Positions 10,669-39,563 of a stretch of DNA of 64,000 bases are shown piece by piece. The position numbers and the translations under genes were made by a program. Each line of letters starts with the position of its first letter. The first letter of the stretch is position 1. This DNA comes from an uncultured Treponema sp. (GTDB lineage: Bacteria; Spirochaetota; Spirochaetia; Treponematales; Treponemataceae), in contig NZ_CAMHSK010000011.1 in assembly GCF_946187725.1 (NCBI RefSeq), forward strand, positions 1 through 64,000, written 5' to 3'. The notes under the pieces were generated by a model that was not told where the DNA came from, searched no databases, and saw nothing but the letters and a program-made list of their open reading frames with translations.

Positions 10669-10703
10669 TGGCTAACTCTGTTCAGTATGCCGATATTTAA
10701 AAT

Positions 10704-11937: not shown

Positions 11938-11946
11938 TTTTCCCTC

Positions 11947-15161: not shown

Positions 15162-15220
15162 ACCTATTGATTAAATAGGTTAAATCCTTTACGATATATT
15201 TACCTACTACAACAATAGGT
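15162..15220 (+). promoter_or_regulatory. Tandem operator pair upstream of the nifX/K/D-like operon
   Basis: O1 ACCTATTGATTAAATAGGT (15162-15180), O2 ACCTACTACAACAATAGGT (15202-15220). Confidence 0.75.
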
Positions 15221-15677: not shown

Positions 15678-15740
15678 ACGCGGATGAACGCTGATAAACG
15701 CTGATAAAAAAATCCGCGTCCATCTGTGTGTATCTGCGTC
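15676..15740 (+). repeat. Dispersed imperfect palindromic repeat (GACGCGGATGAACGCTGAT... ATCCGCGTCCATCTGTGT)
   Basis: Inverted GACGCGGAT/ATCCGCGTC with tandem subunits; resembles dispersed intergenic repeats seen in other genomes. Confidence 0.55.
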
Positions 15741-15758
15741 AAATAAGAGGTATTGAGT

Positions 15759-17087: not shown

Positions 17088-17096
17088 GAGATAACC

Positions 17097-18569
17097 ATGC
17101 CATATAACTTTAAAAACGCAAATCTCGCCGTTCGTGAAAACCGACTCGGCTCAATTACAGGTTTTGTGGGCAACCTTGAAACGCTCGTCTACCGCTCAGA
17201 ATGCGGCTCACTCAAAAACCGCGAGCGATGCTTCTCACAGTCAAGCTCATGTCTTTCGGGCTGTGCCTTGAACGCCCTTGCCGCAATCAGAAACGTGGCC
17301 GTTGTTTACCACGCACCGGCAGGCTGTACCGCAATGGCCTCAAACGACAACGTAAAATTCGGCCAGATTGCAGCCAGAATCAACAAAACCACAAATTCGG
17401 TCTTTGTCTGCACGGACTTGAACGAAAAGGACACGGTTTTCGGTGCGATGAACGACCTTCGAAAAATCGTCGAGCACACTTACAACACATACAAGCCGGA
17501 CGCAATTTTCATCTCGACTTCATGCGTTTCTGGCGTTATCGGTGAGGACGTTGACGGCTTGGCCGACGAAATCAACGAGGAACTTCCGATTCCTGTGATT
17601 CCGGTTCACTGCGAAGGCTTTAAGAGCCGAATCTGGGCAAGTGGTTTTGATATTTCCGACCACGCCGTTTTGCAGGGAATCGTAAAACCGCCGAAAGAAA
17701 AACGTAGAATCATCAACATCAAGAACTTCTACGAGAGCGCACGCCCTCAGATTACAAAGATTTTCAACGAAGTTTTTGACGCTGAGCCGCAGTTTCTTTA
17801 CTGTAACTCGACAATCGAAGAGCTTAGTCATTTGAGCGAGGCTCTGGCAACGGTCTGTATCTGCGGTACTCTGGGAACTTATCTTGGAAACGCTTTGGAA
17901 GAAACTTACGGCGTTCCTTACGTGCGGACAATCAACCATTCTGGAGTCACAGGCTTTGAAACATGGCTCCGTGGAATCGGGGATGCGATTGGCCGCCGCG
18001 AGCAGGTTGAAGCCTACATCAAAAAACAGCGCGAAATTTACATTCCGCAGATTGAAGAAGCAATCAAGCCGCTTCGTGGTCTTCGGGCTGTAATCGGAAT
18101 GGGACCAGGCTTTACTTACGAGATTGCCCGCGTTTTGCAGGAATTCGGCATGACAATCGATTACGCCCTTGCATGGCACTATGATTACAAGTACGACAAC
18201 GGCCAAGTTCCGCCGGCACTGGAGCATCTGCTCAAAAACAGCCCTAAGGACATGAAGGTTGCCGTCGCCGACCAGCAGAACTACGAGGTTTTGAACATCC
18301 TCAACCGCTACAAGCCTGACGTGTACTTTAGCCGACACCCGGGAACTACTGTCTGGGCAATCAAGCAGGGCTATGCCGCAGTCTTCGTTGCCGACGAGTA
18401 CACTGTCTTTGGTTACGAAGGAACTTTGAGCTTTGCAAAACTGATTCGCGACACCGTTACAAACCGCTCGTTCGAGAAAAACCTTGCCGCCCGAATCAAG
18501 CTTCCATACACAAAATGGTGGTACGAGCAGAGCAACGAAAAGTTCATCAACGCGGAGAGCAAGAGGTAG
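17097..18569 (+). CDS. Nitrogenase-like component 1, NifD-type subunit
   Basis: CLSGCALNALAAIRNVAVVYHAPAGC; TSCVSGVIGEDV; PVIPVHCEGFKSRIWASGFDISDHAV. Confidence 0.8.
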   Translation: MPYNFKNANLAVRENRLGSITGFVGNLETLVYRSECGSLKNRERCFSQSSSCLSGCALNALAAIRNVAVVYHAPAGCTAMASNDNVKFGQIAARINKTTNSVFVCTDLNEKDTVFGAMNDLRKIVEHTYNTYKPDAIFISTSCVSGVIGEDVDGLADEINEELPIPVIPVHCEGFKSRIWASGFDISDHAVLQGIVKPPKEKRRIINIKNFYESARPQITKIFNEVFDAEPQFLYCNSTIEELSHLSEALATVCICGTLGTYLGNALEETYGVPYVRTINHSGVTGFETWLRGIGDAIGRREQVEAYIKKQREIYIPQIEEAIKPLRGLRAVIGMGPGFTYEIARVLQEFGMTIDYALAWHYDYKYDNGQVPPALEHLLKNSPKDMKVAVADQQNYEVLNILNRYKPDVYFSRHPGTTVWAIKQGYAAVFVADEYTVFGYEGTLSFAKLIRDTVTNRSFEKNLAARIKLPYTKWWYEQSNEKFINAESKR

Positions 18570-18734: not shown

Positions 18735-21686
18735 CTATTTTGCTAATTTTTCGTAAAGCTTAAATAATTCTCCGACTATTTCCGATTCTGTGATGTCAGG
18801 GGGAAATCCGTAGGCCGCTATTACAGCCTTGTCGTTGGCTTGGTGGGCTTTTCGCAATTCTTGGGGCATGAAAGTCTCATCGTATAAATCTGCGAGCGTA
18901 CTGTCGGGGAAGTTTGCGCGGGTATCCAAAATTGCCTGTGCGGTTTGTTCGATTTTTGCTTTCTGCTCGGCTGTTGGATTGCACCAAACAAAATTGTTGT
19001 AGACAATATCATTTGAGTAACGATAATCGCTTTTCAATCTTCCGCAAACTACACGCATCCATGCGTTATGAATAGAACTTGTAAGTATACCAAATTCATA
19101 TAAACTTGCATTTGGAACAATTTGTACAGCATCACTTGCAATTATATCGGATGAAACATACCCTATTGGAATATAACTACGTTTTTCTGACGAGACTCGA
19201 GGAATCAAGAGATAATTTCCACTTTCGGGCTGACGGTTCTCGGTAAACAGATATGGATATGCGGCCCAATTCTGAGTTGATTCTTTGGAACTTGAAAGCC
19301 GCATTTCTTTTACAGCGGCTACTCTTTGTGCTACAAGTGACATTTTGCGTAATTCGGCAGGACTTGCATTTACGAGCCATAGGCAATATCGTTTTTTCCC
19401 ATTTATGAATTCTTCTGCTCCTAAAAACTCTCGGATAAATTTTTTTGCAGCAGGTTCCTTTTTTATGAATTCGTCGTATTCTTCCGCTTCAATTATAAGA
19501 TTGCCACCATCTGTAGGCTGGCTTCCTTTGTTAATTTTAGAAACTTTGCAAAGCGGATTCTTTCTTTTTTCAACAAAAACATTCGGTGCATCAATTAAGT
19601 AAGGAGAGATATTACTTGCTATAGTCTTATTTCCATTCTCATCGAAGATAATTTTTTCCTTTTGATTGCTGTTTTTGTCACTGAATCCAAGAATTACACA
19701 ATGAACATGAGCTTTTTGAGAGCTTTCAGAATCCCAAACAAATGTTTTATATGCAAAATCAAATTGAATATTGTTTTCCTCAAAAAGTGGCTTCCATACT
19801 TCTGCGACTTGCTCACCTTGAATAATCGAGTTTGTAGAAACAAAAGCGCATTTTGTCTGACTTCCATGAATAAGTCTGCTTGCTTTAATATACCACCCGA
19901 CAACATAATCGATATTTTTCCCAATGTTTTTTACAACAAGTGCCAAGTCTTTCTTTTGCTGTTCAGATTGGAATGCATATCCAACAAAAGGGGGATTCCC
20001 GATGATGTAATCATAAACAATAGGCTTTGAAATTGATTTTGTATGGTCTATTTTGAACTCGACTTCTTTTGCAACTACATTAAGTTCTTTAAAATACTTC
20101 TGTGATAAGGCAGATTCTTCAATTTCTGAATCATGGATTTCAATCGTTGCCCCAGATAAATCTTTGTAAATGTTGAGCTTTTCGGCATAAAGAGCGTTAA
20201 GTTTCTGATTCTGCGAAAGTGTCGCCCAGTCAAGCTGCAGTGCGTTTCCTTCAATGATATTAGCACCTGTTTTGAGTGGTAGAAAATCAATTGTCTGACT
20301 CAAAATTGCCTCGGTTTCTGCAACCATCTGGCTTTCCGCAATCCACAAGGCGGTTTTTGCGACTGTTACGGCAAAATCGTTTATTTCAATTCCATAGAAC
20401 TGGTTGATGTGAACTTTGATAAATTCATCGAATCCTAATTTTTTGTGGCCTTCGTTAAGGATTGAAAGAACTTTGTTTTCAAGCCGTCGGAGCGAAAGAT
20501 ATGTTTCTGTCAAAAAGTTTCCGGAGCCACATGCTGGGTCAAGAAATTTGAGTGAGCCGAGTTTTTCTTGAAAATCATAAAGTTTATCGATTTTTTGCTT
20601 GGCCGCTTTTGTCGCGCAAATCTGTTCAAACTCAGAATTTAACTCGTCCATAAAGAGCGGGTCGATTACCTTGTGAATGTTCTGAATCGAAGTGTAGTGC
20701 ATTCCGCCCTTTCGGCGTGTGTCTGGATTCAATGTACTTTCAAAAACTGCACCAAAAATTGTTGGGGAAATCTCTGACCAGTTGAACGGAGCGCAGTGAT
20801 TTACGATAACATCGACAATCTCTTGTGTGAAATTTGGAATTTCAATCTTTTCATCTCGGAATAATCCGCCGTTCACATAGGGGAAAGGCTTTAGTTTGAG
20901 GTCGTATTTGTCTCGGTCTGAAAGTTTTGTATCGAGACTCTTGAAAAGCTTGATGATTCCGTCACGCAGATTTTCAATGGCAAATGATTTTATATAATCT
21001 TCAAAAGAACTTTTGGTTTCAAAAAGCCCCGCATCTTCGGCATAAAGGCAAAAAACGATTCTGACGCAGAGAATGTTGAGTGAACGAAGACTGTTTTCTT
21101 CTGGTTCAATGTACTCTTTGTATAAAGCATCGTAAAGTTTTCCTACAAGTTCTCCAGCTTTTAAAGAAATTTCTTCTTCACGACGGATATTCTCGTTTTT
21201 TGTGTCCGAAAGAAATTGCAGACGATAAAAATCTTTTTCCAAGTCTTTCAAGAAAATCTGCTCTGGCTCGCCGCTTGGATTTTCCATGTCATACACAAGA
21301 AATTCATCAAAATTGCAAGTAACAATCCACTTTGGATGCTGGCTCAAAGGCAAGTCTGCAACATATTTTTTTGCCTGTTGGTATGGAGTGAGAAAAGATC
21401 CATCGCTCTGCTTGATAGGTTCACGCAAGTCCTTGTGGCTTGACTTTTGCTCAATCATAACTCGGGTGGAAGGAATATAGGCATCGATAAAATTCGTGAT
21501 TGTTTTGTTCTGAATCTTGTCTTTTACCTGCTCTTCAAAGAAGATGAAATTCGCAATGTCTGCCACACCGAACACGCAAGTCAGAAGGTCAATCCAAAAT
21601 TTCTGGGATTCGCCTTTTTCGTAGCCGTGTCCAAGCCAGTTTTCCGCGAACTTTTTAGCATTCTTTGTTTGTTCTGCCCTTGTCAT
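18735..21686 (-). CDS. MmeI-like (type IIL) restriction-modification enzyme / DNA adenine methyltransferase
   Basis: N-terminal nuclease FIDAYIPSTRVMIEQKS (D...ExK), FLDPACGSGNFLTETYLSLR, IGNPPFVGY (NPPF), C-terminal target-recognition-like region. Confidence 0.85.
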   Translation of the reverse strand: MTRAEQTKNAKKFAENWLGHGYEKGESQKFWIDLLTCVFGVADIANFIFFEEQVKDKIQNKTITNFIDAYIPSTRVMIEQKSSHKDLREPIKQSDGSFLTPYQQAKKYVADLPLSQHPKWIVTCNFDEFLVYDMENPSGEPEQIFLKDLEKDFYRLQFLSDTKNENIRREEEISLKAGELVGKLYDALYKEYIEPEENSLRSLNILCVRIVFCLYAEDAGLFETKSSFEDYIKSFAIENLRDGIIKLFKSLDTKLSDRDKYDLKLKPFPYVNGGLFRDEKIEIPNFTQEIVDVIVNHCAPFNWSEISPTIFGAVFESTLNPDTRRKGGMHYTSIQNIHKVIDPLFMDELNSEFEQICATKAAKQKIDKLYDFQEKLGSLKFLDPACGSGNFLTETYLSLRRLENKVLSILNEGHKKLGFDEFIKVHINQFYGIEINDFAVTVAKTALWIAESQMVAETEAILSQTIDFLPLKTGANIIEGNALQLDWATLSQNQKLNALYAEKLNIYKDLSGATIEIHDSEIEESALSQKYFKELNVVAKEVEFKIDHTKSISKPIVYDYIIGNPPFVGYAFQSEQQKKDLALVVKNIGKNIDYVVGWYIKASRLIHGSQTKCAFVSTNSIIQGEQVAEVWKPLFEENNIQFDFAYKTFVWDSESSQKAHVHCVILGFSDKNSNQKEKIIFDENGNKTIASNISPYLIDAPNVFVEKRKNPLCKVSKINKGSQPTDGGNLIIEAEEYDEFIKKEPAAKKFIREFLGAEEFINGKKRYCLWLVNASPAELRKMSLVAQRVAAVKEMRLSSSKESTQNWAAYPYLFTENRQPESGNYLLIPRVSSEKRSYIPIGYVSSDIIASDAVQIVPNASLYEFGILTSSIHNAWMRVVCGRLKSDYRYSNDIVYNNFVWCNPTAEQKAKIEQTAQAILDTRANFPDSTLADLYDETFMPQELRKAHQANDKAVIAAYGFPPDITESEIVGELFKLYEKLAK

Positions 21687-21743: not shown

Positions 21744-21798
21744 ATCTATTGACTTAGTAGGTAATAATCGCTATTATATACCTACCTTACAACTAGGT
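21744..21798 (+). promoter_or_regulatory. Promoter with tandem operator pair upstream of the ABC transporter operon
   Basis: O1 ATCTATTGACTTAGTAGGT (21744-21762), O2 ACCTACCTTACAACTAGGT (21780-21798); TTGACT-N17-TATTAT. Confidence 0.8.
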
Positions 21799-21814: not shown

Positions 21815-22774
21815 ATGCTTAATTTAAAAAATGTTCTATATCGTGCTTTACCTGTACTTGGCGTGCTTTTTGCACTTTTGGTGCAGAGTGTTTTTCCTGA
21901 TAGTCCGCTTCACCCGGCTTCAACGAAACATTATTACAACTTTCTTCTATATATATTGCTTTCGGTCACGGTTGTGTTGTTTGCGCTTTCTTTTTTCATC
22001 AAAAGGATTCATGACTCGCTTTCTGAAAAGGGAGCTTTTTTCGCTGGAAGCGGCATTCTGATTGCGATTTTGAATCTTGTGACCGCAAAATTGGCCTTGC
22101 TTCCGGTGATTTTCTTTCCGAGCTATGACAACATTCTGGCGGTATTCGTAGAACAAACTTCCCTGCTTTTGAAGTGCATTGGCTTTTCGTTCAGACTTTT
22201 GATTCTGGGCGTAATTTGGGGCGTAATTACAGGATTTATCACGGGCGTTTTTCTTGGCTTTTCAAAAAAGGTCTACTACTGGATTAATCCGTACATAAAG
22301 CTGATTGGTCCGATTCCTGCTACGGCATGGATTCCGCTCGTGCTGACCACTTTTCCGACGCCACTTGGGGCAAGCATTTTCATCATCGCGCTTGCGGTTT
22401 GGTTCCCGGTTCAGCTGATGACAAGCTCCGGAATACAGAATACAAGCAAGGTTTATTTTGAAGTGAGCAAGACGCTTGGAGCGGGAACCTTTTATCAGGT
22501 GTTCAAAGTCGCAGTTCCGGCCGCCCTTCCGAACATCTTTCAGGGCGTTTTCAACGGAATCTGTGCGGCATTCATCGCGCTCATGACGGCAGAAATGTTC
22601 GGTGCAAAATACGGAATCGGCTGGTACATAAGCTATCAGAAAGCGATGATGCTCTATTCAGGTGTCTACGCCGGTCTGATTATGATTGCGGTCTTCTGTA
22701 CAGTAATCATCACCGCCCTATTCAAAGTGCGAACCCGCCTATTAAGCTGGCAGAAAGGACTTATCAAATGGTAA
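21815..22774 (+). CDS. ABC transporter permease, SsuC/TauC type
   Basis: Multi-TM; inner-membrane EAA-like region SKTLGAGTFYQVFKVAVPAALPNIFQGVFNGICAAF. Confidence 0.8.
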   Translation: MLNLKNVLYRALPVLGVLFALLVQSVFPDSPLHPASTKHYYNFLLYILLSVTVVLFALSFFIKRIHDSLSEKGAFFAGSGILIAILNLVTAKLALLPVIFFPSYDNILAVFVEQTSLLLKCIGFSFRLLILGVIWGVITGFITGVFLGFSKKVYYWINPYIKLIGPIPATAWIPLVLTTFPTPLGASIFIIALAVWFPVQLMTSSGIQNTSKVYFEVSKTLGAGTFYQVFKVAVPAALPNIFQGVFNGICAAFIALMTAEMFGAKYGIGWYISYQKAMMLYSGVYAGLIMIAVFCTVIITALFKVRTRLLSWQKGLIKW

Positions 22775-22799: not shown

Positions 22800-23882
22800 A
22801 TGAAAAAAGTTTTTACAGCAATTGTCTTTGCAGCTATCGTATTTACTGGCTGTGAAAAGAAATCGTCGTCTCAGAAGGTCGTACGAATCAACTTCCAAAC
22901 AGGCACTCTCTGTGCGGCTCCTGTTCATGTCGCAATGAAAATGGGGCTTTTTGATGAGGAACTTGCCGCAATCGGGCAGAAAGCGGAATATGTTCAGGTC
23001 GTTGAAGGCGGAGCAACTCTTGCAGAAATGATTGCTTCGGGCAAAGTCGATGCAGGATATGGCTTGTATGCGACCCAGCTTCAGGCAATGGAAAACGGTC
23101 TTCCAATCTCCTACACTTCGGGAATTCATGTCGGCTGTACGAAATATTATGTCCGTGCAGACTCAAACATTTATTCTGCAAAAGACTTGCGCGGAAAGAA
23201 AATCGGTGTTCCAGGCCTTGCTGATTCGAGCGTCATGAACCTCAAACGAAAACTCATGGATGAAGGAATCGGAGTTACTGCTGATAACAACGAAGTCGAA
23301 TTTCTGGCTTATGCTTCATCTGACCTTGCAATCGCTTTGAATAACGGTGCGGTTGATGTAATCGGTGCGCACGATCCAGTCGCAACAAAAGGCGAACGAG
23401 CTTACAAATTCCGAAAAATTCTTGATACGGGAATTGATGAAAAATTCGTAAACGAGTATTGCTGCCAGCAGTTCGTAACGCACAAACTCTTAAAGGAAAA
23501 TCCCGAAGGAGCAGCCGCTGTAACACGGGCTTTGCAGAAAGCAAGTGCCTTTGTCGAAGCAGAACCAAGAATTGCGGCACAGCTTCAGATTGAAAACAAT
23601 CTCGTTGCTGGAGACCTGGATTTCAATGCAGAACTTCTCGACGAGCTAAACTTCATCCCAAGCCGCTCATTGGGCAAAAAGACCTTTGATTCTGCGGCGC
23701 GACAGCTTCAGGAAGCAGGAATCCTTAAAAAGACAACGGACATCGAAAAGTTTATTGCACAAGGATATATCGAGCTTTTTGGAGTTCCAGACGGCTATTC
23801 GTATGATTCAGCAACACAAACTTATAAAGAGATCAACGGAACAAGAACTAGTTTCAATTTAAAAAAATATCGGAGAAAATAA
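22800..23882 (+). CDS. ABC transporter substrate-binding lipoprotein, SsuA/NMT1 type
   Basis: Lipobox VFTGC; VEGGATLAEMIASGKVDAG; DLRGKKIGVPG. Confidence 0.8.
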   Translation: MKKVFTAIVFAAIVFTGCEKKSSSQKVVRINFQTGTLCAAPVHVAMKMGLFDEELAAIGQKAEYVQVVEGGATLAEMIASGKVDAGYGLYATQLQAMENGLPISYTSGIHVGCTKYYVRADSNIYSAKDLRGKKIGVPGLADSSVMNLKRKLMDEGIGVTADNNEVEFLAYASSDLAIALNNGAVDVIGAHDPVATKGERAYKFRKILDTGIDEKFVNEYCCQQFVTHKLLKENPEGAAAVTRALQKASAFVEAEPRIAAQLQIENNLVAGDLDFNAELLDELNFIPSRSLGKKTFDSAARQLQEAGILKKTTDIEKFIAQGYIELFGVPDGYSYDSATQTYKEINGTRTSFNLKKYRRK

Positions 23883-23883
23883 A

Positions 23884-24087
23884 ATGAAAAAGCTAAATCT
23901 TATTCTGGCATCAGTAAGTGCACTTTTTGGACTGCTCGTAGCACTGGCCCCATACACCTTCGCAAAGGTCTGTTCAATGCCAAAAATGCACTGCCACGCA
24001 GTAACCGCACCGACTGAATTTGTCCTTGGAATCTTGATTTTCGCATTTTCTGCCTTTCAGGCGGCACTTCTATGGAAAAAACGCTGA
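23884..24087 (+). CDS. DUF4418-like small membrane protein
   Basis: Two TM segments with CSMPKMHCHAVTAPTE between them. Confidence 0.6.
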   Translation: MKKLNLILASVSALFGLLVALAPYTFAKVCSMPKMHCHAVTAPTEFVLGILIFAFSAFQAALLWKKR

Positions 24088-25286
24088 TTGAAAAACTGCC
24101 GGAAGGATTTTCTCTGGCGCTTTCAAATCTTTCAAAGAAGATTTACAGAACAGTTTCGCTTATCTTCCTTGCAGCTATTTCTTCTGCTGTTCTGTTCGCT
24201 TCGCTGATTCTCTCTTCAAGCCTGAAATCTGGAATCACAGGCCTTCGTTCCCGACTGGGCGCAGACCTGCTGGTAGTTCCAGAAGGCTATGAACAGGGAG
24301 CAGAGAATGTTCTTCTTACTGGTGAACCAAATTATTTCTACATGGACAAATCCGTTCTGGAATCAATTCGGGGCCTTGAGGGAATTGAAAATGCCACTGC
24401 TCAGTTTTACCTTACAAGCCTTGCTGAATCCTGCTGCGACTTTCCTATACAGATAATCGGATTCGACAGAAAAAGCGATTTTATCGTTCAGAATTGGGCA
24501 CGCACGAAACTGGGCGAAAACAGCTCAACTGAAGACTTTCTTCTTTCGGGCAGCAATGTAAGCCTGACACACGGAAAAGTCAAATTTTTCGGTGAAGAGC
24601 ACACAATTTCCGGAAGACTTTCAAAAAGCGGAACAGGAATGGACAATACAATCTTTTGTGATTTGGAAAGCCTTCAAAAAATTTTCGAAAGCGCAAAATC
24701 AAAAGGCTTCGGCTTCATTTCTGACGGCGATACAAAGAATAAAATCAGCACGGTTTTAATCAAAGTATCAGACGGCTCTTCAACAGATTCCGTCGCGCTC
24801 AGAATAAAAAATGCTGTGAAAGGAATACAGGTACTTACCGGCGAGAAATTCCTTAAATCTTTTTCGGAAAGGATTTCATCATTTCTCGTATTCTTTTATT
24901 CAATTTCGGCCCTGGTTCTCTTAATCAGCATTTTTTCACTCGGAATTGTATTTTCGTTAACAATCAATGAGCGGCAGCGTGAATTTTCAATTCTTCGTGT
25001 GCTCGGAGCAAACAGAAGACAGCTCAGGCAAATTCTTTTAGCAGAAGCGGCTTTTTTGGGCGGAAGCGGAGCTGTCACAGGAATTGCATTATCAGCACTG
25101 ATTGTGATTCCATTCAACGCCATCATAGCAGAAAAAATCTCACTTCCTTTTGCGATGAGCAGTGCAGGCGAGATTCTGATTTTTGCCCTTCTCACCTTCG
25201 CCTTATGTACAGCTTCAAGCGTTTTTGCCGCATTAAACGGCGCATTCAGAATCTCAAAAATTGAACCTTATGGAGGAATAAAATGA
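24072..25286 (+). CDS. FtsX/LolC-like ABC transporter permease
   Basis: N-terminal TM + large extracytoplasmic domain + three C-terminal TMs; SLTINERQREFSILRVLGANRRQL. Confidence 0.8.
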   Translation: MEKTLIEKLPEGFSLALSNLSKKIYRTVSLIFLAAISSAVLFASLILSSSLKSGITGLRSRLGADLLVVPEGYEQGAENVLLTGEPNYFYMDKSVLESIRGLEGIENATAQFYLTSLAESCCDFPIQIIGFDRKSDFIVQNWARTKLGENSSTEDFLLSGSNVSLTHGKVKFFGEEHTISGRLSKSGTGMDNTIFCDLESLQKIFESAKSKGFGFISDGDTKNKISTVLIKVSDGSSTDSVALRIKNAVKGIQVLTGEKFLKSFSERISSFLVFFYSISALVLLISIFSLGIVFSLTINERQREFSILRVLGANRRQLRQILLAEAAFLGGSGAVTGIALSALIVIPFNAIIAEKISLPFAMSSAGEILIFALLTFALCTASSVFAALNGAFRISKIEPYGGIK

Positions 25287-25939
25287 TTCAAATCGAAAAA
25301 CTGTCAAAATCATTCAAAACTCCGCGGGGAATAAAAAAAGTCTTTTCAGATTTTTCATTAACGGTGAAAGATGGAAGTTTTCTCGGAATCGCAGGTGAAT
25401 CAGGAACAGGAAAAAGCACGCTCCTTTCAATCATTACCGGCCTTCAAAAGCCAGATTCTGGAAAAGTATGCGTCAACGGAACGGAACTTTTGTCGCTCAA
25501 TGATGATGAGATGTGCACTTTCCGAAATGAGAACATTGGATTTGTTTCGCAGGAGCAGAGTTTCCTTGAAAATCTTTCAGTTCTCGACAATGTGACACTT
25601 CCGGCTTTGCTTTCAAAAACAGGCAAAACCAAAAAGAGCGAAGTTATCGGACGGGCAAAAAAACTCCTTTCAGATTTCGGAATAGAAAGCCTTGCTGAAA
25701 TGGGTCCATCAGCTCTTTCCGGCGGGGAAAACCGAAGACTGCTGATTGCACGGGCGCTGATTAATGACCCGCAGATTATTGTAGCCGATGAACCGACTGA
25801 TGCCGTGAGCAAAAAGCAGGCCGAAGAAATCATCGGCATATTCAAGGCACTTTCAAAACGCGGAAAGACGGTAATTTTAGTCACCCACGATGAAAACGCA
25901 CTGAAAAAATGCAGCAGCGTTTTTTATTTAGACAAATAA
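25283..25939 (+). CDS. ABC transporter ATPase, LolD/MacB-like
   Basis: GESGTGKST, LSGGENRRLLIARALI, IIVADEPTD. Confidence 0.85.
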   Translation: MIQIEKLSKSFKTPRGIKKVFSDFSLTVKDGSFLGIAGESGTGKSTLLSIITGLQKPDSGKVCVNGTELLSLNDDEMCTFRNENIGFVSQEQSFLENLSVLDNVTLPALLSKTGKTKKSEVIGRAKKLLSDFGIESLAEMGPSALSGGENRRLLIARALINDPQIIVADEPTDAVSKKQAEEIIGIFKALSKRGKTVILVTHDENALKKCSSVFYLDK

Positions 25940-25975: not shown

Positions 25976-26968
25976 ATGGCAAAAAAGATTCACGATTCAC
26001 TTACCGAGCTTGTAGGACACACTCCCCTCGTTCGGCTTCACGGATATGAAAAAAAACTCGGCTTAAAGGCACATCTTCTGGCAAAAGTTGAATATTTCAA
26101 TCCAATCGGAAGCATTAAAGACAGGATTGTTCTGCGCATAATCGAAGATGCAGAAAAAGCAGGAAAAATTCAGCCCGGAAAAACCACCTTGATTGAATAC
26201 ACCAGCGGAAACACAGGAATTGCAGTAAGCGCAATCGGAGCGATGAAAGGCTACAAAGTCCGCATTTTCCTTCAGGAAGGTGTCAGCAAGGAACGCTTGC
26301 AGGTGATGAAAGCATTCGGCGCAAATGTAACAAAAATCGGTGATGTTCCAGAATTACAAGATGCACTCAAAGCAACGAACAATGATTTCGTAGCGGCAAC
26401 AAACATATTAAAACAGCATATTCGTGACCGCCAGGCCGCAGGTGATGATATTTATTTCGTTGATCAGATGATTAATCCTCTGAATCCGCAGGCTCATCAC
26501 GATACGACTGGAAAGGAAATCTGGGAAGACACGGAAGGCGAACTTGCGGCCGTAGTTGCTTCGGTCGGAACGGCCGGAACCATCCGTGGAATCGCTGACT
26601 ACCTTCATGGGCAGACAAAAAATGTAAAAATCTTTGCCGTAGAACCGGGCGAAAAAGACACGAAACTTACGGGAATTCATAATTTTACAGAAGTGCCAGT
26701 TGAACGAGTTCCGCCAAGCATCAAGGAAAACAATGAAATCACTAAAAAAGTCTTTGATGAAGTGTTTGTCGCTGACACAGACGGCGCATTTGAAGCGGCA
26801 AGAACTGTTGCAAAAACAGACGGCGTTCTGGTAGGAAATTCAAGCGGAGCGGCCCTCTGGGGAGCAACACAGATTGCCCAAAAAGAAGAATTCGCCGGAA
26901 AAAATATCGTAGTGATTTTCCCTGACACAGGACTTCGATATTTGAGCACAAATCTTTTTGAAGACTAA
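25976..26968 (+). CDS. cysK: Cysteine synthase family (PLP)
   Basis: VGHTPLVRL, NPIGSIKDRI, EYTSGNTGIAVS, VGTAGTIRGIADYL. Confidence 0.9.
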   Translation: MAKKIHDSLTELVGHTPLVRLHGYEKKLGLKAHLLAKVEYFNPIGSIKDRIVLRIIEDAEKAGKIQPGKTTLIEYTSGNTGIAVSAIGAMKGYKVRIFLQEGVSKERLQVMKAFGANVTKIGDVPELQDALKATNNDFVAATNILKQHIRDRQAAGDDIYFVDQMINPLNPQAHHDTTGKEIWEDTEGELAAVVASVGTAGTIRGIADYLHGQTKNVKIFAVEPGEKDTKLTGIHNFTEVPVERVPPSIKENNEITKKVFDEVFVADTDGAFEAARTVAKTDGVLVGNSSGAALWGATQIAQKEEFAGKNIVVIFPDTGLRYLSTNLFED

Positions 26969-27002: not shown

Positions 27003-27767
27003 ATGCCGGGAAACATAAATATTCAGAAAGTTAACAAAAGTTTCGGAGATATTAAGGTACTGAACGATTTCTCACTGGATATAAAAGAAGGTTCTTTCGT
27101 AAGTTTGATTGGTCCGTCTGGATGCGGAAAATCAACACTTTTAAGAATCATCGGAGGTCTTGAAAAAGCAACAACAGGTTCTGTAAGTCTGGACGGCGAA
27201 ACAATTACAAAGGCTGGAAGTGACAGAGGCTTTGCTTTTCAGGGCTCGAATCTGTTCCCCTGGCTTTCGGTAAAGGATAATGTTTCATTCGGCCTAAAAG
27301 CACGAAAAATCTACCACGAAAAAAAGCAGGATGTAAGCGATATCATCAATCTTGTCGGCTTAAAAGGATTTGAAAATTCCTATCCGCATCAGATTTCAGG
27401 CGGAATGCAGCAGAGAGCGTCCTTAGCACGAGCACTCGTCGGTCATCCAAAAGTCCTTCTTCTTGACGAACCTCTTGGCGCTTTGGATGCCTTTACGCGA
27501 ATGAATTTGCAGGATGAAATTCTCCGCATAAAGAAAGAAAATGAAATGACTATGCTCATGGTAACTCATGATGTAGATGAAGCGATTTACATGAGCGACA
27601 GAGTTGTGGTAATGAGCGCACGGCCAAGTCGTGTTGAAGCAGTTATCGATATAAATCTTCCTCATCCGCGAATTCGGGTGCAGGATACCTTCACTCTTTA
27701 CCGCAATAAGATTCTTGAATACCTGGATTTTGGCGGCAAAGTTCAGGATATTGAATATGTAATTTAA
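27003..27767 (+). CDS. ABC transporter ATPase, SsuB/TauB type
   Basis: GPSGCGKSTLLRIIGGLE, FQGSNLFPWLSV, SGGMQQRASLARALV, LLLDEPLGALDAFTR. Confidence 0.85.
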   Translation: MPGNINIQKVNKSFGDIKVLNDFSLDIKEGSFVSLIGPSGCGKSTLLRIIGGLEKATTGSVSLDGETITKAGSDRGFAFQGSNLFPWLSVKDNVSFGLKARKIYHEKKQDVSDIINLVGLKGFENSYPHQISGGMQQRASLARALVGHPKVLLLDEPLGALDAFTRMNLQDEILRIKKENEMTMLMVTHDVDEAIYMSDRVVVMSARPSRVEAVIDINLPHPRIRVQDTFTLYRNKILEYLDFGGKVQDIEYVI

Positions 27768-27797: not shown

Positions 27798-28235
27798 ATG
27801 GAAGAGAATATGTACAAAATTTCAACCAGAGGACAGTATGCACTTTTGATTATGGAAGATTTGGCGGAAAACGCAGAAGATTCTTTTGTTCCGCTGCGAC
27901 TTCTTTCTCACAGACGAAATCTTTCAGTAAAATACCTCGAACAGATTCTTTCAAAACTGGTTGCGGCAAATCTCGTTGAAGGTTCAAGAGGAATTAACGG
28001 CGGCTACAGACTTACGAAACCCGCAGATAATTACACGGCAGGCGAAATCCTTCGAGTCATGGAAGGCGACCTTTCCCCGCGAAATACAAACGAAGGAAAT
28101 ACAATTGAATCAGCAGGCAGCGACGAGTTTTGGAAAGGCTTTGAGAATGTAATCAATAATTTTGTGGATTCCATAACGCTCGACACGCTGGTTCATAAAA
28201 ATAAAGAATTCGTTGGCTTTGAATACTGCATCTAA
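27798..28235 (+). CDS. Rrf2 family transcriptional regulator
   Basis: MYKISTRGQYALLIMEDLAEN...LSVKYLEQILSKLVAANLVEGSRGINGGYRLTKP; no IscR-like Cys triad. Confidence 0.9.
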   Translation: MEENMYKISTRGQYALLIMEDLAENAEDSFVPLRLLSHRRNLSVKYLEQILSKLVAANLVEGSRGINGGYRLTKPADNYTAGEILRVMEGDLSPRNTNEGNTIESAGSDEFWKGFENVINNFVDSITLDTLVHKNKEFVGFEYCI

Positions 28236-28303: not shown

Positions 28304-28358
28304 TCCTATTGACATAGTAGGTAATTAAATGTATATTAAACCTACCAGTTAACTAGGT
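28304..28358 (+). promoter_or_regulatory. Promoter with tandem operator pair upstream of LanC-like gene
   Basis: O1 TCCTATTGACATAGTAGGT (28304-28322), O2 ACCTACCAGTTAACTAGGT (28340-28358); TTGACA-N17-TATATT. Confidence 0.8.
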
Positions 28359-28372
28359 TTAGGAGAAAAAAT

Positions 28373-29803
28373 ATGGCAGAAAATGTACTTTTCAGTGACT
28401 ACTCTGCTTCCGATTACATAAAATTTGCGGAACAGAGCGCGGCATGGATAAAATCCACAAAGCAGGCAGGAAAATTCGGTGCACGATGGATTCAAAGCCC
28501 GGATTCAAAAGAAGATTTTACTGATTACCCGATGCTCACACCGAAATCCCTTTACGGTGGCTCAGCTGGAGTCGGACTTTTTTACCTTCGATTATATCAG
28601 TCGACAAAAAATGCTGAATATCTTGAGGAAGCAAAATCAGCGGCAAAAGAGATAATCGAAACCGATGAAGGGGCGGCTTTTTACGAGCGGACTTTGAATG
28701 CAAAGGCAAGCGGGGCTTCAAAACTTGTTCATGTAAAAAATATGCCTGGCTGGGCTGCAGGATACTACAACGGTCCTACTGGAAGTGCATATCTCGTGCT
28801 CAAACTTTATGAACTTACAGGTGATGAATCTTACAAAAACTATGCCGTCAAAGTTGCTGATGATTTGCTTGCGGCTGCAAAAAAATCTGATGCTGGCATT
28901 TACTGGAGCGAACAGAATGATTTGTGCGGCGATGCAGGATTCGTGACCTATCTTTCTGCAATCTACGAGCTTACAAAAGATTCAAAATATCTTGATGCAG
29001 AAAAAAGTTTCGGGAACTTCCTTTTGAGCAAAGGAAAACCTGCTCCAAAGGGCGGAACTTACTGGAATGTAGTTGATTTGACAATCATCGACTTTCCGAA
29101 AGATGTTTTCTGGGTAAATAATGCTCACGGAACAAGCGGAATCGGCTGGATTTTCACGATTCTTTACAAAACGACAAAAGACGAAAGATTTTTGAACGCG
29201 GCAAAAGAAGCTGCAAAATATATCGAAGGAATTGCGGTCGGTGACGAAAATGCTGTTCTTGTTCCATATCTCGACAGTTTGGAACGCGGTCCATCAACTG
29301 AGTTCTATTATCTGAGCACATGCCACGGACCTGCAGGAACTTCACTGCTCTTCCATGCGCTTTATAAAATCACCAGCGAAAAGCATTATCTGGATTGGGT
29401 TTTGAGGCTGAGCCGTGGAATCATTAAGGCGGGTGCACCGGAGAATTTCAGCCGCGGTTACTGGCAGAGTCAGGCTTTGTGCTGCGGAACTCCGGGCTTG
29501 CTTGAACATTTCGTTTCGGTTTACAAGCTCACGAAAAATCAGGAATTCCTTGAATATGCTAAACGGGCGGCAAAAACTGTTGTTGGGCAGTCATTTGTTC
29601 CTGATGCAGACGGTGATATTTATCATCAGAAAGCATTGCGAAGATGGAGCGGTGCATGGTGGCGAACGATTCCGACCGATGTTCACTCTTACACAGGTCT
29701 TTACATCGGAACGGCAGGAAACGCATGGTCGCTTCTTTCACTTGCGGCAGCCGAAAAGAACGAAAATCTTATCGAGCTGATTGAATACAACTATTTTAAC
29801 TAA
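28373..29803 (+). CDS. Stand-alone LanC-like (lanthionine synthetase C-like) protein
   Basis: (alpha/alpha)-barrel G-rich repeats: SLYGGSAGVGLFYL, YNGPTGSAYLVL, NNAHGTSGIGWIF, STCHGPAGTSLLF, ALCCGTPGLLEHF, YIGTAGNAWSLLSL. Confidence 0.75.
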   Translation: MAENVLFSDYSASDYIKFAEQSAAWIKSTKQAGKFGARWIQSPDSKEDFTDYPMLTPKSLYGGSAGVGLFYLRLYQSTKNAEYLEEAKSAAKEIIETDEGAAFYERTLNAKASGASKLVHVKNMPGWAAGYYNGPTGSAYLVLKLYELTGDESYKNYAVKVADDLLAAAKKSDAGIYWSEQNDLCGDAGFVTYLSAIYELTKDSKYLDAEKSFGNFLLSKGKPAPKGGTYWNVVDLTIIDFPKDVFWVNNAHGTSGIGWIFTILYKTTKDERFLNAAKEAAKYIEGIAVGDENAVLVPYLDSLERGPSTEFYYLSTCHGPAGTSLLFHALYKITSEKHYLDWVLRLSRGIIKAGAPENFSRGYWQSQALCCGTPGLLEHFVSVYKLTKNQEFLEYAKRAAKTVVGQSFVPDADGDIYHQKALRRWSGAWWRTIPTDVHSYTGLYIGTAGNAWSLLSLAAAEKNENLIELIEYNYFN

Positions 29804-29827: not shown

Positions 29828-30808
29828 ATGGCTAAAATTTACGATTCAATTACAGAACTTGTTGGGGACACACCGCTTGTCCGTCTTCATCGATATGAAA
29901 AATCTGAGAACCTTGAGGCAAACATTCTCGGAAAATTTGAGTACTTCAATCCTTCGGGCAGTGTCAAAGACCGAGCGGCATTGAACATCATCGAAGAAGC
30001 AGAAAAACGCGGCGACATTCATCCTGGAATGACTTTGATTGATTATACGAGCGGCAACACTGGAATCGGTGAGGCAACTTTCGCAAATGCAAAGGGATAT
30101 AAATTCGTTGCCGTCATTCAGCCACTTGTTTCGCAGGAACGATCGCAGATTCTCAAGGCTTTGGGAGCAGAGCTTTTGCAGGTAACGGATGTTCCGGGAT
30201 TCCCTGAGCTTTTGAAAAACGGCCTTACAATGACCGCACTCGAAAAACTCTTCAAAGATTTTGCCGCATCAAAAGGCTGGTATTACTTGAATCAGTGCGC
30301 GGACATTAATAACTCGCTTGCTCATGTAAAATCAACTGGTCCTGAGATTTGGGAAGCAACAGGCGGAAAAGTCGATTATGTTGTTCAGCTCGTAGGAACA
30401 GGCGGCACGCTTTCAGGCCTTTCAAAATACTTCCGTGAGAAAAATCCAAATGTAAAGATTATCGGAGCACAGCCTGCCGAACAGTCAAAGAAAAACCCTA
30501 ACTTCCCGGAGCGAAACACAATCGACGGTGTTTTGAACTTTGACGGCGTTCCACAGGAAAATTATCCGCCACTTTTCACAAGTTTCGACACCAAATACGA
30601 TGAATGTTTCAATGTCGTTGCCGAAGACGCTTATGAGACAGGCCGAAAACTCGTAAAACAGGAAGGATTCTTCGTTGGCCAGTCAGCAGGCGCGGCCCTT
30701 TGGACAGCAACCCAAATTGCAAAACGCCCGGAAGCAAAAGGCAAGAACATCATCGTGATTCTCGCCGACAACGCGTTCAAATATCTTTCAACAAATATGT
30801 ATAAATAA
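29828..30808 (+). CDS. Second cysteine synthase family protein (PLP)
   Basis: VGDTPLVRLHRYE, NPSGSVKDRAALN, DYTSGNTGIGEA, VGTGGTLSGLSKYF. Confidence 0.88.
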   Translation: MAKIYDSITELVGDTPLVRLHRYEKSENLEANILGKFEYFNPSGSVKDRAALNIIEEAEKRGDIHPGMTLIDYTSGNTGIGEATFANAKGYKFVAVIQPLVSQERSQILKALGAELLQVTDVPGFPELLKNGLTMTALEKLFKDFAASKGWYYLNQCADINNSLAHVKSTGPEIWEATGGKVDYVVQLVGTGGTLSGLSKYFREKNPNVKIIGAQPAEQSKKNPNFPERNTIDGVLNFDGVPQENYPPLFTSFDTKYDECFNVVAEDAYETGRKLVKQEGFFVGQSAGAALWTATQIAKRPEAKGKNIIVILADNAFKYLSTNMYK

Positions 30809-30897: not shown

Positions 30898-32073
30898 ATG
30901 TCTTTATCCTTTGAATCCAAATGTCTTCACATAGAAGATGAATCCGCTCCCGCGGGTGGTATAACTGCAGGGCACTGTACTCACTATGGTGCGATAAGTT
31001 TCCCGATTTATCAGACTGCAACTTACGCTCATCCCGCTGTCGGTCAGAGCACAGGCTTTGATTACAGCCGTCTGCAAAATCCGACAAGAGAGCATCTTGA
31101 AAAAGTAATTGCCCAACTCGAAGGAGGAATAGACGCATTCGCACTTTCAAGCGGAATGGCCGCTATCACTTTGCTTATGGAGCTTTTTTCACCGGGTGAC
31201 CACATAATTGCAGATTCAGACCTTTACGGAGGTTCAATCCGCCTGTTTGACAATGTATCAAAAAAAAATGGAATTCAGTTCACCCGCCAAAATATTGCAG
31301 AACTTGGCGAATCAGAATTGGAAAGTCTTGTCACATCAAAAACAAAGGCAATCTATATCGAAACCCCGACAAACCCGATGATGAATGTTACCGACATTGC
31401 AAAAACAGCGGAAATTGCAAAGAAACACGGACTTCTTTTAATAGTAGACAATACATTTATGTCCCCATATTTTCAGAATCCACTTGCACTCGGTGCCGAC
31501 ATCGTGGTTCATTCAGGTACAAAATATCTGGCTGGCCACAATGACACCCTTGCAGGCTTCATAGTGACAAATCGGCCGGACATTCAGGAAAAACTTCGCT
31601 TCCTCATAAAAACCACGGGAGCAGGCCTTTCACCTTTTGACAGCTGGCTCACCCTGCGCGGAATCAAGACGCTCGCAATCCGCATGGAAAAGGCACAGCA
31701 AAACGCTGTAAAAATCGTTGAATGGCTCAAAAATCAAAAGGAAGTCACAAAAGTCCTGTATCCGGGGCTTCCAGAACATCCGGGCTTTGAAATTCAAAAA
31801 AAGCAAGCCCGTGGATTCGGCGCGATGATTACATTCAATGTCACCGATGAAGCAAAGGCCAAGTCAATTTTGAACAAGGTCAAGCTGATTCAGTTTGCAG
31901 AAAGTCTCGGTGGAGTGGAAACGCTCATCACCTATCCGGTAACGCAAACTCACGCAGATGTTCCTGAAGAAATCCGTCTCAAAAACGGAATCACAACCTC
32001 AACGCTCCGACTTTCAACAGGCATTGAAAATCCAGACGATTTAATAGAAGATTTAAGGCAGGCAATAAAGTAA
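30898..32073 (+). CDS. Cys/Met metabolism PLP enzyme (cystathionine gamma-synthase/lyase or O-acetylhomoserine sulfhydrylase family)
   Basis: YSRLQNPTREHLEK, SSGMAAITLLMELF, GTKYLAGHNDTLAGF, LSTGIENPDDLIEDL. Confidence 0.85.
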   Translation: MSLSFESKCLHIEDESAPAGGITAGHCTHYGAISFPIYQTATYAHPAVGQSTGFDYSRLQNPTREHLEKVIAQLEGGIDAFALSSGMAAITLLMELFSPGDHIIADSDLYGGSIRLFDNVSKKNGIQFTRQNIAELGESELESLVTSKTKAIYIETPTNPMMNVTDIAKTAEIAKKHGLLLIVDNTFMSPYFQNPLALGADIVVHSGTKYLAGHNDTLAGFIVTNRPDIQEKLRFLIKTTGAGLSPFDSWLTLRGIKTLAIRMEKAQQNAVKIVEWLKNQKEVTKVLYPGLPEHPGFEIQKKQARGFGAMITFNVTDEAKAKSILNKVKLIQFAESLGGVETLITYPVTQTHADVPEEIRLKNGITTSTLRLSTGIENPDDLIEDLRQAIK

Positions 32074-32107: not shown

Positions 32108-33274
32108 ATGTACGATTTCAACAAAATTACAGACCGTCATAACACCAACGCGATAAAATTCGACCTTGCAGTTGCACGCGGAAAGCCCGCCGATGTACTT
32201 CCTCTTTGGGTTGCCGACATGGACTTTCCTACTTCGCCAGCAATTATTGAAGCACTTCATTCTAAAGTAAATCACGGAATTTTCGGATATTCTGTTCCTG
32301 ATGAGCGATTTTATGACGCCGTCAAAAAATGGCAGAAAACAGAGCACGATTTTGAAATCAACAGAAACTGGGTTGTGACCACACCGGGAGTCGTTTTTGC
32401 AATCGCCACGGCAATCAGGGCCTTTACAAATGAAGGGGATGCCGTAATCATTCAGACTCCGGTTTACTATCCATTCAAGAACATGATTGAAGCAAATAAC
32501 CGTAAACTCGTCACATCTTCGCTTTTTGAAAAAGACGGCAAGTGGCAAATCGATTTTGATGACTTTGAGCGAAAAATCGAAGAAAACGCCGTAAAGCTCT
32601 TCATTTTATGCAGCCCGCACAATCCAGTCGGCAGAGTCTGGACGCGCGAAGAACTGACCCGTCTTTCAGAAATCTGCCTTAAGCACAATGTTCTTGTTTT
32701 TGCCGATGAAATTCACAACGATTTTGTATTTGAGCCGAACAAGCACACAGTTTTTTCGACGATTTCTAAAGAGACCGCATTGAATTGTATCGTCTCTACT
32801 TCCGCGAGCAAAACTTTCAACCTTGCGGGCCTTCAGTTCTCAATCAATTTCATTCAGAATCCTCAGTTAAAAAGAAAATTCCATGATGAACGCGACAAAA
32901 CCGGCTACGATGAACCGAGTCTTATGGGATTCGTTGCAACGCAGGCAGCTTATGAACAGGGCAAAGAATGGCTTACCGAACTGAAAGCACACCTTGTATC
33001 AAATCTTGATTTTGTACGGAAATTTGTTAAAGAAAATCTCCAAAAAGCACGGTTGATTGAACCAGAAGGAACTTATCTTCTGTGGCTGGATTTTTCGGCT
33101 TACGGGTATTCAGATGCTGAACTCGATGATTTAATCGTAAATAAGGCAAAAGTCTGGCTTGACCGTGGAACGATGTTTGGAGCGGAAGGAAATTGCTATC
33201 AGAGAATCAACATAGCAACTCCCCTCCCGATTTTAAAAGAAGCCCTCGAAAGAATATCGAAGGCTTTATCGTAA
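32108..33274 (+). CDS. MalY/PatB-type aminotransferase / cystathionine beta-lyase
   Basis: LPLWVADMDFPTSPAI, CSPHNPVGRVW, FADEIHNDFVF, STSASKTFNLAGLQ. Confidence 0.88.
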   Translation: MYDFNKITDRHNTNAIKFDLAVARGKPADVLPLWVADMDFPTSPAIIEALHSKVNHGIFGYSVPDERFYDAVKKWQKTEHDFEINRNWVVTTPGVVFAIATAIRAFTNEGDAVIIQTPVYYPFKNMIEANNRKLVTSSLFEKDGKWQIDFDDFERKIEENAVKLFILCSPHNPVGRVWTREELTRLSEICLKHNVLVFADEIHNDFVFEPNKHTVFSTISKETALNCIVSTSASKTFNLAGLQFSINFIQNPQLKRKFHDERDKTGYDEPSLMGFVATQAAYEQGKEWLTELKAHLVSNLDFVRKFVKENLQKARLIEPEGTYLLWLDFSAYGYSDAELDDLIVNKAKVWLDRGTMFGAEGNCYQRINIATPLPILKEALERISKALS

Positions 33275-38126: not shown

Positions 38127-39563
38127 ATGTTTCCACCACTTCCACAAGAAAAAGCAGCCGCAGTTTTAAAAGATTTAATTCAGTCGCTCGAAGAAGGCAA
38201 AATTGAACTTGTACAGGTAGCCCGACCGAGTGAAGAACGAAAGAATCAGGGGGTGATGCTGGGCGCGCTCGTCTGTAAAAATAAAAACGGCGATGAAGTC
38301 AATTTGGTGACAAACTCTGGGAACGCAAAACAGTTTAGAATTAGCAGTGAGCAATTAGCAGTTAGCAGTGAGCAATTAGCAGTTAGCAATTATAACGGGA
38401 CATTGTTCGCTTCGCTCACTCGTCCTAGTGTTTTGGGGGGAGTTGTTTTTGTAGGGCCGATTGTTTCGGCAGGGCAGATTGAAGCTGCACTTTCTGAGAA
38501 TGATAGAGAAATTCATGAAATAACGAAAAAAATTAACAATGAGCAATTAGCAATGAGCAATGAGCAATTGAAAGAATTGCGTAAACAGCGAGAAAAATTG
38601 TGTGATGAGTCTTTGTCAAAAGTTCATGCACTTTATAAGTTTCATTGCATTGATGGGAAGGTTCGGTCGCTCAAAGAGATTTGCGGAATTTATAACGGCG
38701 GCAAATTGCCTCCGACTGGAACTGGTGACTGTTGCGCACCGAAACTCTTAGATTATGCCTTTTCGCACGAATTGATTCCTATTTCACTGGCAGAAACTCC
38801 TCACTCAACTTCTCACTGCTCACCGCTAACTGCTAACTTAACTCCCCCTTGCGATGAACGATGCGGAATCCTGCTTCCTGCCATGCTGGGCTTGCGGATT
38901 TTATATCGTGACGAGGCGATTTGCGTTGTGAACAAGCAGTCTGGGCTTTTGAGCGTTCCCGGTCGTGGAGAAGACAAGCAGGACTGTATTGAGTCTCGAT
39001 TTAAGCGGCTTTTCGGCGACAAAGTTGAAATCGCACAGTGTGCAGTTCACCGTCTCGACCTGGAAACCAGCGGCGTGATGATTCTTGCATTTACAAAAGA
39101 GACACATCACAAACTTATGCAGCAATTTGAGGCAAAAACCGTTCAAAAAGAATATGTCGCACTGCTTGACGGCGTGCTTGCCAAAAAAGGAATTGCACAG
39201 CACGGTCAGATGGAGCTTTTTTTCAGGCTTGATGTCGAAAACCGTCCGCACCAGATTTGGGATGCAGAAAACGGCAAAAGTGCGGTCACTGAATGGGAAA
39301 TTTTGGGCGTTGAGCGGTATCATGCGCCAGACGGCTCAACACGGAATGCCACGCGGGTACTTTTTATGCCGCACACAGGGCGCACTCATCAGCTTAGGCT
39401 TGCAAGCGCGGACGCTCACGGCTTTGGCGTGCCGATTATAGGAGACACTCTCTACGGAAAATGCGATGAAGGTGAGCGGCTCATGCTCCACGCACGGAAA
39501 GTCACTTTCACGCACCCAGTCACAGCCGAGCCAATGACGATTGAGTGCAATCCGGAGTTTTAA
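38127..39563 (+). CDS. RluA family pseudouridine synthase with in-frame repeat expansions
   Basis: ILYRDEAICVVNKQSGLLSVPG, HRLDLETSGVMILA, TGRTHQLRLASA; N-terminal part contains SEQLAVSSEQLAVS. Confidence 0.88.
   Translation: MFPPLPQEKAAAVLKDLIQSLEEGKIELVQVARPSEERKNQGVMLGALVCKNKNGDEVNLVTNSGNAKQFRISSEQLAVSSEQLAVSNYNGTLFASLTRPSVLGGVVFVGPIVSAGQIEAALSENDREIHEITKKINNEQLAMSNEQLKELRKQREKLCDESLSKVHALYKFHCIDGKVRSLKEICGIYNGGKLPPTGTGDCCAPKLLDYAFSHELIPISLAETPHSTSHCSPLTANLTPPCDERCGILLPAMLGLRILYRDEAICVVNKQSGLLSVPGRGEDKQDCIESRFKRLFGDKVEIAQCAVHRLDLETSGVMILAFTKETHHKLMQQFEAKTVQKEYVALLDGVLAKKGIAQHGQMELFFRLDVENRPHQIWDAENGKSAVTEWEILGVERYHAPDGSTRNATRVLFMPHTGRTHQLRLASADAHGFGVPIIGDTLYGKCDEGERLMLHARKVTFTHPVTAEPMTIECNPEF

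Follow-up and report, generated by a model that had tools for sequence, protein, structure and literature searches.

LanC enzymes form thioether rings in peptides, and in eukaryotes they add glutathione to dehydroamino-acid residues. The zinc site of ProcM, a bifunctional LanM enzyme acting on peptides, is composed of three cysteines and exhibits the motif CCG. In passages of PMC11667668, ProcM-like enzymes are described as possessing a unique set of zinc ligands, and ProcM itself is reported not to catalyse retro-Michael additions; for LanCL1, the roles of His219 and His277 are described in section 6 of PMC9934072. Concerning anaerobic sulfur metabolism, the isethionate reductase IsrBHDK, which occurs with SsuCAB, and the methylthio-alkane reductase MarBHDK are presented in sections of PMC11423573 as nitrogenase-like C-S reductases, and excerpts of PMC3464626 and PMC13067680 place a cysteine synthase beside nitrogenase-like genes. 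No paper joining LanC-like proteins with a cysteine synthase was found in the open PMC literature.

The locus described here is situated in a stretch of 64,000 nucleotides from an uncultured Treponema sp. (the window) and contains a stand-alone LanC-like gene that is followed by a cysteine-synthase paralogue, CysK2. The two-gene module formed by the LanC-like gene and its dedicated CysK2 is the new observation made here.

Organization of the sulfur gene set

The genes and regulatory sites of the set are arranged in the window as follows:

5125–5143 (+): operator before the NifB-like gene
5166–6038 (+): NifB-like radical SAM protein (TIGR01290, 275.9 bits, below the cut-off of 343.65)
15162–15180 and 15202–15220 (+): two operators before the nitrogenase-like operon
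15237–15677 (+): dinitrogenase-cofactor (NifX/NifB C-terminal) domain protein
15753–17087 (+): nitrogenase-like NflK
17097–18569 (+): nitrogenase-like NflD
21780–21798 (+): operator before the transporter operon
21815–22774 (+): SsuC/SaoP-type permease
22800–23882 (+): SsuA/SaoX-type solute-binding protein
25976–26968 (+): CysK1, a second CysK paralogue outside both the CysK2 clade and the canonical group
27003–27767 (+): SsuB/SaoA-type ABC ATPase
27798–28235 (+): Rrf2-family regulator; the nearest equivalog model is CymR, below its cut-off
28304–28322 (+): second operator copy with one mismatch, overlapping the -35 box
28309–28337 (+): sigma-70-like promoter TTGACA-17-TATATT, as read from the sequence
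28340–28358 (+): operator ACCTACCAGTTAACTAGGT, upstream of the LanC-like gene
28373–29803 (+): stand-alone LanC-like protein of 476 aa with seven GxxG repeats and CHG...CCG
29828–30808 (+): CysK2, dedicated cysteine-synthase paralogue and constant partner of the LanC-like gene
30898–32073 (+): cystathionine gamma-lyase/synthase-like PLP enzyme, CGL (PRK07671, 462.7 bits, below the cut-off of 594)
32108–33274 (+): PatB-family C-S lyase (TIGR04350, 476.8 bits, above the cut-off of 340)

The motif ACCTA-N9-TAGGT is found five times without mismatch (at 5125, 15162, 15202, 21780 and 28340) and three times with one mismatch (at 21744, 25939 and 28304), such that the window contains eight copies with at most one mismatch where shuffled sequences lead one to expect 0.41. 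These copies precede the NifB-like gene, the NifX/NflK/NflD genes, SsuC, CysK1 and the LanC-like gene, and their excess supports the initial annotation, which had placed a sulfur operator at the LanC-like promoter. By way of this common operator, the LanC-like gene appears to belong to one regulon with the NifB-like, NflDK and transporter genes. Because of its family and the position of its gene, the Rrf2 protein is the candidate for binding ACCTA-N9-TAGGT.

Among related loci (see below), 17 of 19 Treponemataceae loci carry the core CCTA-N9-TAGG in the 350 bp preceding lanC (shuffling would give 0.05 loci), and in some loci the core is also found before Rrf2, PatB, CGL or CysK1. Among the 17 close loci of Lachnospiraceae and other Eubacteriales, the operator is situated upstream of lanC in a single one (L035); the other 16 exhibit a different upstream sequence, and several of the close loci of these groups contain a LysR gene nearby.

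The nitrogenase-like system is split into a NifB-like gene (5166–6038), NifX/NflKD (15237–18569) and a NifH gene on another contig of the same genome (G000:C46:9450-10256), the parts within the window having the operator in common. In Treponema ruminis, NifH is oriented divergently from the Rrf2-CGL-PatB-LanC-CysK2 genes. Sulfite as an intermediate, as for isethionate reductase, is disfavoured: the sulfite/nitrite reductase model NIR_SIR (PF01077) found no match in three of four whole host genomes (G000, which is the window genome, G182 and G127) and one match in the fourth (G140), while its control search gave matches in 11 of 14 genomes, so that sulfite is an unlikely intermediate in those three hosts.

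Some further features were observed in the window. An FtsX-like permease and a LolD-like ATPase (24072–25939) are located within the sulfur operon and are kept in L015, L017 and L022. CysK1 is placed beside the CysK2 clade in the tree; among the loci, it was found only in the full Treponema operon (the window, L015, L017 and L022). A gene on the minus strand (18735–21686), which encodes an MmeI-like type IIG restriction-methylation enzyme, separates the nitrogenase-like genes from the transporter operon. The region 7327–13559, with a Cas9 gene (PADLOC Cas9 models), two ORFs resembling Cas1 and Cas2 and a repeat array with a period of 66 bp, is a putative type II CRISPR system, Cas1 and Cas2 being named by the look of their ORFs. 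At 38335–38568, a coding ORF contains short tandem repeats with units of 7 and 21 bp (TTAGCAA/TTAGCAG).

Fold of the LanC-like protein

The ORF 28373–29803 is complete, with an ATG start and a ribosome-binding-like stretch GGAG, and it passes the curated cut-off of the Pfam model LANC_like (PF05147; 2.5e-30, 105.7 bits, cut-off 23.2). In its AlphaFold model (pLDDT 91, pTM 0.92), the best 20 matches of a VIA structure comparison are all of LanC/LanCL type (Z 23.7–34.4 over 316–399 residues), and Foldseek agrees in placing LanCL2 and LanCL1 on top. The repeats with STCHGPAG and ALCCGTPG reported in the initial annotation are located at residues 315–322 and 368–375. The profile match and the predicted structure identify the ORF product as a true stand-alone LanC-like protein with a seven-repeat alpha barrel fold.

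A barrel of the glycosidase (alpha/alpha) kind, acting on a sugar or a thioglycoside with cysteines arranged as in GH127, would account for the matches to the Pfam models GH88 and GH127, which reach the cut-offs and are strongest through one repeat region, and for the GH47 and GH76 folds found at Z 18–22. However, all glycosidases score below the LanC and LanCL structures (the GH47 mannosidases rank after them, from Z 22.2 downward). The zinc site of GH127 is Cys-Cys-Cys-Glu, and no Glu stands two residues before Cys317; the neighbours, moreover, are PLP and sulfur genes and form no carbohydrate operon. A glycosidase was rejected as the primary reading on account of the higher-scoring LanC structures and the absent GH127-like Glu, and we consider it very improbable.

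Predicted zinc site and conserved residues

The predicted zinc ligands are encoded at two sites:

29321–29323 (+): Cys317 codon, within CHGPAG; the residue is the predicted first Zn ligand and does not vary among the 45 homologues
29480–29485 (+): codons for Cys370 and Cys371, within CCGTPG; these residues are the predicted second and third Zn ligands and likewise do not vary among the 45 homologues

An alignment of 33 LanC-like relatives was compared with one of nine ordinary CHG-type LanC proteins. The former did not include L035, L046 (broken gene) and L053 (fragment), nor the close Treponema loci L013, L016, L018, L019, L021, L024 and L026. The two profiles align in hhalign over almost their full length (396 columns, 99.5% probability). 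In this register, C317-H318 corresponds to the Cys-His of WCHG, C370-C371 to the Cys-His of LCHG, and H252 to a conserved His of repeat 4, such that the exchange of His for Cys is real and in register. The register rests on the profile-profile alignment and on the order of the seven GxxG repeats; a HMMER register setting the CHG at 317 on the second CHG of LanCL1/2 was one repeat off and was dropped.

Cys317, Cys370 and Cys371 are invariant in all 33 aligned relatives and in another 12 that are more divergent (identities among the 45 reach down to about 25%), so that no loss of the predicted zinc ligands, which the initial annotation had named as evidence against its reading, is seen. The zinc-ligand positions Cys and Cys-His of repeats 5 and 6 are thus kept, the third predicted ligand being Cys instead of His in each of the 45 homologues. 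Together with the profile alignment, this invariance bears out the claim that CCG replaces CHG. Concerning the likeness to ProcM that had also been proposed, the CCG motif fits the alignment; for a correspondence in print, passages of PMC11667668 support a unique ligand set of ProcM-like enzymes and go no further.

Position 187 is acidic (D or E) in 44 of the 45 family members, and R431 is also kept in 44 (32 of the 33 aligned and all 12 divergent relatives). H252 varies more: it is kept in 32 of 45 (28/33 and 4/12) and replaced by Y, M or F in the other 13. Since the predicted zinc-binding cysteines are invariant while H252 varies, the thiol-activating part of LanC is, as far as the alignments indicate, kept more strictly than the product-protonating acid of known LanC enzymes, and the reaction of the family may differ from thia-Michael addition or its reverse.

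By alignment position, His219 of LanCL1, whose counterpart in NisC is the catalytic His212, matches H252, and Cys276-His277 of LanCL1 match C317-H318. These correspondences, along with LanCL1 and LanCL2 among the nearest folds, are what a thiol conjugation similar to that of LanCL proteins would lead one to expect, in which cysteine or another thiol (via CysK2) is added to dehydroamino acids or Michael acceptors in repair or detoxification. The regulon and the neighbouring genes, however, concern sulfur import and C-S cleavage rather than damage repair, and H252 is lost in the 13 members mentioned. Furthermore, the gene family is sparse, with any match in 10 of 195 family genomes and in 6 of 392 Lachnospirales, which is odd for housekeeping repair. 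Such a conjugating role is regarded as unlikely.

Pairing of the LanC-like gene with CysK2

A scan of 84,980 species genomes led to 53 loci, 35 of which (L012–L046) contain close relatives of the LanC-like gene (66–90% identity) in Treponema, Lachnospiraceae and other Eubacteriales. CysK2 (58–99% identity to 29828–30808) follows directly after the LanC-like gene in 34 of these 35 loci, at L013 after 218 bp and at L046 after a broken lanC. The sole exception, L028, is cut off by the end of its contig, and in G152, the genome that matches it, CysK2 is found at the start of another contig. In the window, the cysteine synthase that the initial annotation had seen downstream is present, its distance being 24 bp (start at 29828) instead of the 25 bp given.

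Among the 195 family genomes, an intact close LanC and an intact CysK2 are found in the identical eight (Fisher 2e-14), a count from which G107, with a divergent gene, and G193, where a contig end leaves a fragment, were excluded; with fragments counted, the overlap is eight, of nine and nine. The distance matrices of LanC and CysK2 are correlated (r 0.87 over 34 loci, a value that none of 2000 permutations reached), also within Treponemataceae (0.73) and within the other close loci (0.64). A CysK-like neighbour occurs in none of ten ordinary CHG-type LanC loci used as controls (L054–L063), within the locus stretches examined (L064, a match of 45 residues, was left out). The complete genome of Treponema ruminis RU1 carries the pair as well. 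The LanC-like gene and CysK2 are a co-inherited two-gene module. In the genome G155, a CysK2 remnant with an internal deletion is found (contig C3; L072, 848–1549, minus strand) and no LanC match was obtained; a co-decay of the pair is possible there.

CysK2 possesses the PALP domain, and it stays below the cut-offs of the CysK and CysM equivalog models TIGR01139 (252.2 bits, cut-off 350.95) and TIGR01138 (245.4 bits, cut-off 394.2). In a tree, the 44 CysK2 proteins group together as a single clade (support 0.888) to which canonical CysK does not belong. The canonical CysK of the host genome is encoded on contig C37, at most 4 kb from a gene that reads as serine-acetyltransferase-like, and falls outside the CysK2 clade. 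The PLP lysine and the SGNTG loop of canonical CysK/CysM are kept in CysK2, whereas the GIGAGF region, a loop at the substrate entrance of CysK, is replaced by a DGVLNF-type loop, and the exchanges S274A and S302N (E. coli numbering) are present. Owing to these differences, CysK2 probably carries out a PLP beta-replacement with a nucleophile or a partner other than that of CysK.

Gene orders and carriers in divergent loci

More distant relatives were obtained as extra copies in two Lachnospiraceae host genomes and from the 392 Lachnospirales searched, six of which gave matches. The comparison of divergent members covers 17 loci (L047–L052, L074–L076 and L088–L095). A gene of the CysK2 clade is present in nine (L047, L048, L074, L075, L088, L090, L091, L093 and L095), and the examined stretch of the other eight (L049, L050, L051, L052, L076, L089, L092 and L094) contains none; L050 and L051 are cut by contig ends. 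Gene orders include CysK2-SsuCBA-LanC (L093), NflDK-LysR-LanC-CysK2 (L095), CysK2-LanC-CGL (L074) and PatB-CysK2-LanC (L075), and the close relatives L025 and L027 exhibit LanC-CysK2-SsuCBA, while the contig of L026 ends earlier. The Lachnospirales genome G527 possesses four LanC-like copies (L088, L091 and L095), of which two stand in tandem within a single operon that also contains CysK2 and CGL.

Different carriers are found beside the divergent members: NMT1/SsuA-type binding proteins adjoin L076 and L093, sodium:solute symporters are situated at L075 and L088, a CitMHS carrier at L089 and a cystine-type binding protein at L094. Nine of the ten neighbour genes scanned had been picked for their carrier-like look, such that these are examples and do not give a rate. 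NhaC-type antiporter genes lie beside or near the divergent CCG LanC genes of L052, L090 and L092 (L052 and L092 being without CysK2); these loci perhaps constitute a second sub-branch with another substrate. Transporter and NflDK genes are absent from most loci, and their link to the LanC-like gene thus appears looser than that of CysK2. Taken as the neighbourhood survey that the initial annotation had suggested, the loci strongly support a small-molecule sulfur role of the LanC-like gene.

A non-catalytic zinc/thiol protein that binds CysK2 as a scaffold, sulfide carrier or sulfur sensor, in a complex like those of CymR-CysK or CysE-CysK, would be consistent with the constancy of the partner, with the Rrf2/CymR-like regulator adjoining the LanC-like gene and with the loop that replaces the canonical GIGAGF in the CysK2 clade. 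The invariant predicted zinc ligands, the near-invariant R431 and the acidic residue 187, however, resemble a pocket under selection, and the members of L076 and L094 stand beside importers without CysK2. We consider a non-catalytic role of this kind improbable.

Search for lanthipeptide genes

The full LanC fold and its motifs would also suit a true lanthipeptide cyclase whose precursor and dehydratase are encoded elsewhere in the genome. Against this, the LanC-like gene possesses the only LanC domain of its genome, which excludes LanM, LanKC and LanL. Whole-genome searches of 14 further hosts likewise gave a single LanC domain in 12; the other two contain three and two LanC matches, the unbroken ones being of stand-alone size. 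Among the eight Treponemataceae hosts, G186 alone has an extra LanC-domain ORF (902 aa). LanB (PF04738) gave no match in any of the eight host genomes, the control search finding matches in 6 of 295 Lachnospirales. As the initial annotation had stated, no RiPP dehydratase, precursor or exporter peptidase is found near the LanC-like gene among the neighbouring genes scanned (a subset of the window ORFs). Clustering of 530 small intergenic ORFs near L012–L053 yielded no widespread precursor; the largest shared group comprises six loci and, among the matches listed, is restricted to Treponema. The combination of precursor and dehydratase that would contradict a small-molecule role was thus not encountered, no other LanC domain and no LanB (0/8) having been found, and no peptide exporter was seen. 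With no further LanC domain, LanB or precursor found, a lanthipeptide cyclase was rejected; we rate it as extremely improbable.

Proposed function

Alongside the computed fold and predicted ligands, the conservation and co-inheritance of the pair, the common operator and the absence of LanC-bearing lanthipeptide synthetases, the reading we prefer, with slightly more confidence than doubt, is that of a LanC-fold Zn(Cys)3 enzyme (C317, C370 and C371) which is not a lanthipeptide enzyme and forms a sulfur-scavenging couple with CysK2. Under sulfur shortage, an Rrf2-type repressor would leave the ACCTA-N9-TAGGT operators, and a carrier of the SsuABC type (elsewhere SSF, NhaC-type or cystine-type) would import a small organosulfur compound. 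The LanC-like enzyme may bind the sulfur of this compound at Zn(Cys)3 and so activate it as a thiolate (Arg431 being a candidate carboxylate anchor), and would then cleave a C-S bond, as in a thia-Michael addition run backwards, or, less likely, form one. The thiol or sulfide set free would be captured by CysK2 on its aminoacrylate intermediate, yielding cysteine or an S-substituted cysteine, and this product could be processed by PatB and CGL.

The activation of sulfur on zinc and its capture by CysK2 are proposed because the minimal conserved set consists of LanC and CysK2, sometimes with just an importer (L093), and the breaking of a C-S bond is considered likelier than its making because the regulon is one of scavenging; the direction of the reaction and the substrate are guesses. 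Concerning the initial annotation, its small-molecule sulfur role is borne out by the gene neighbourhoods, while the forming or breaking of a C-S bond is a step that we infer.

A wider reading, held tentatively and with somewhat more doubt than confidence, is that of a new metabolic branch of LanC, in which the Zn(Cys)3 'CCG' enzyme and CysK2 would together act in spirochaetes and Lachnospiraceae as a two-component C-S lyase/synthase, with imported organosulfur compounds as substrates, and would be wired into a nitrogenase-like sulfur-scavenging regulon. If true, there would be a bacterial LanC family outside peptide maturation, and, through a conserved LanC-CysK2 pair that belongs to a sulfur regulon, the superfamily would gain a metabolic branch acting on small molecules. 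The pair might serve as a simple system for how a three-Cys zinc site steers the making or breaking of C-S bonds. It would also name candidates for missing enzymes of anaerobic sulfur scavenging in the gut, where nitrogenase-like C-S reductases have just recently been assigned.

Comparison with known systems

The LanC-like protein has its barrel fold in common with class I LanC (NisC) and with MadC (Z 31.6 and 33.2), and differs from them in its CCG site and in the lack of a LanB match in its genome. Like LanCL1 and LanCL2 (VIA Z 31–33), it is a stand-alone LanC fold; the latter, however, are eukaryotic, glutathione-adding enzymes with His as the third ligand, whereas the window protein is bacterial, possesses Cys at this position, has a cysteine-synthase paralogue as its partner and belongs to a family in which H252 is not general. 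With the ProcM-type LanM enzymes it shares non-standard (predicted) zinc ligands; those enzymes are bifunctional and act on peptides, whereas the window protein, with 476 aa, consists of the LanC part only and is found in no precursor or peptide context.

As to the gene set, a NifB-like gene, NflDK and an SsuCAB-type transporter are present both in the Isr/Mar systems treated in sections of PMC11423573 and, as far as the genes alone are concerned, in the window regulon. No LanC is mentioned in those sections for the Isr/Mar systems, unlike in the gene set of the window, where the LanC-like gene and CysK2 stand behind the same operator.
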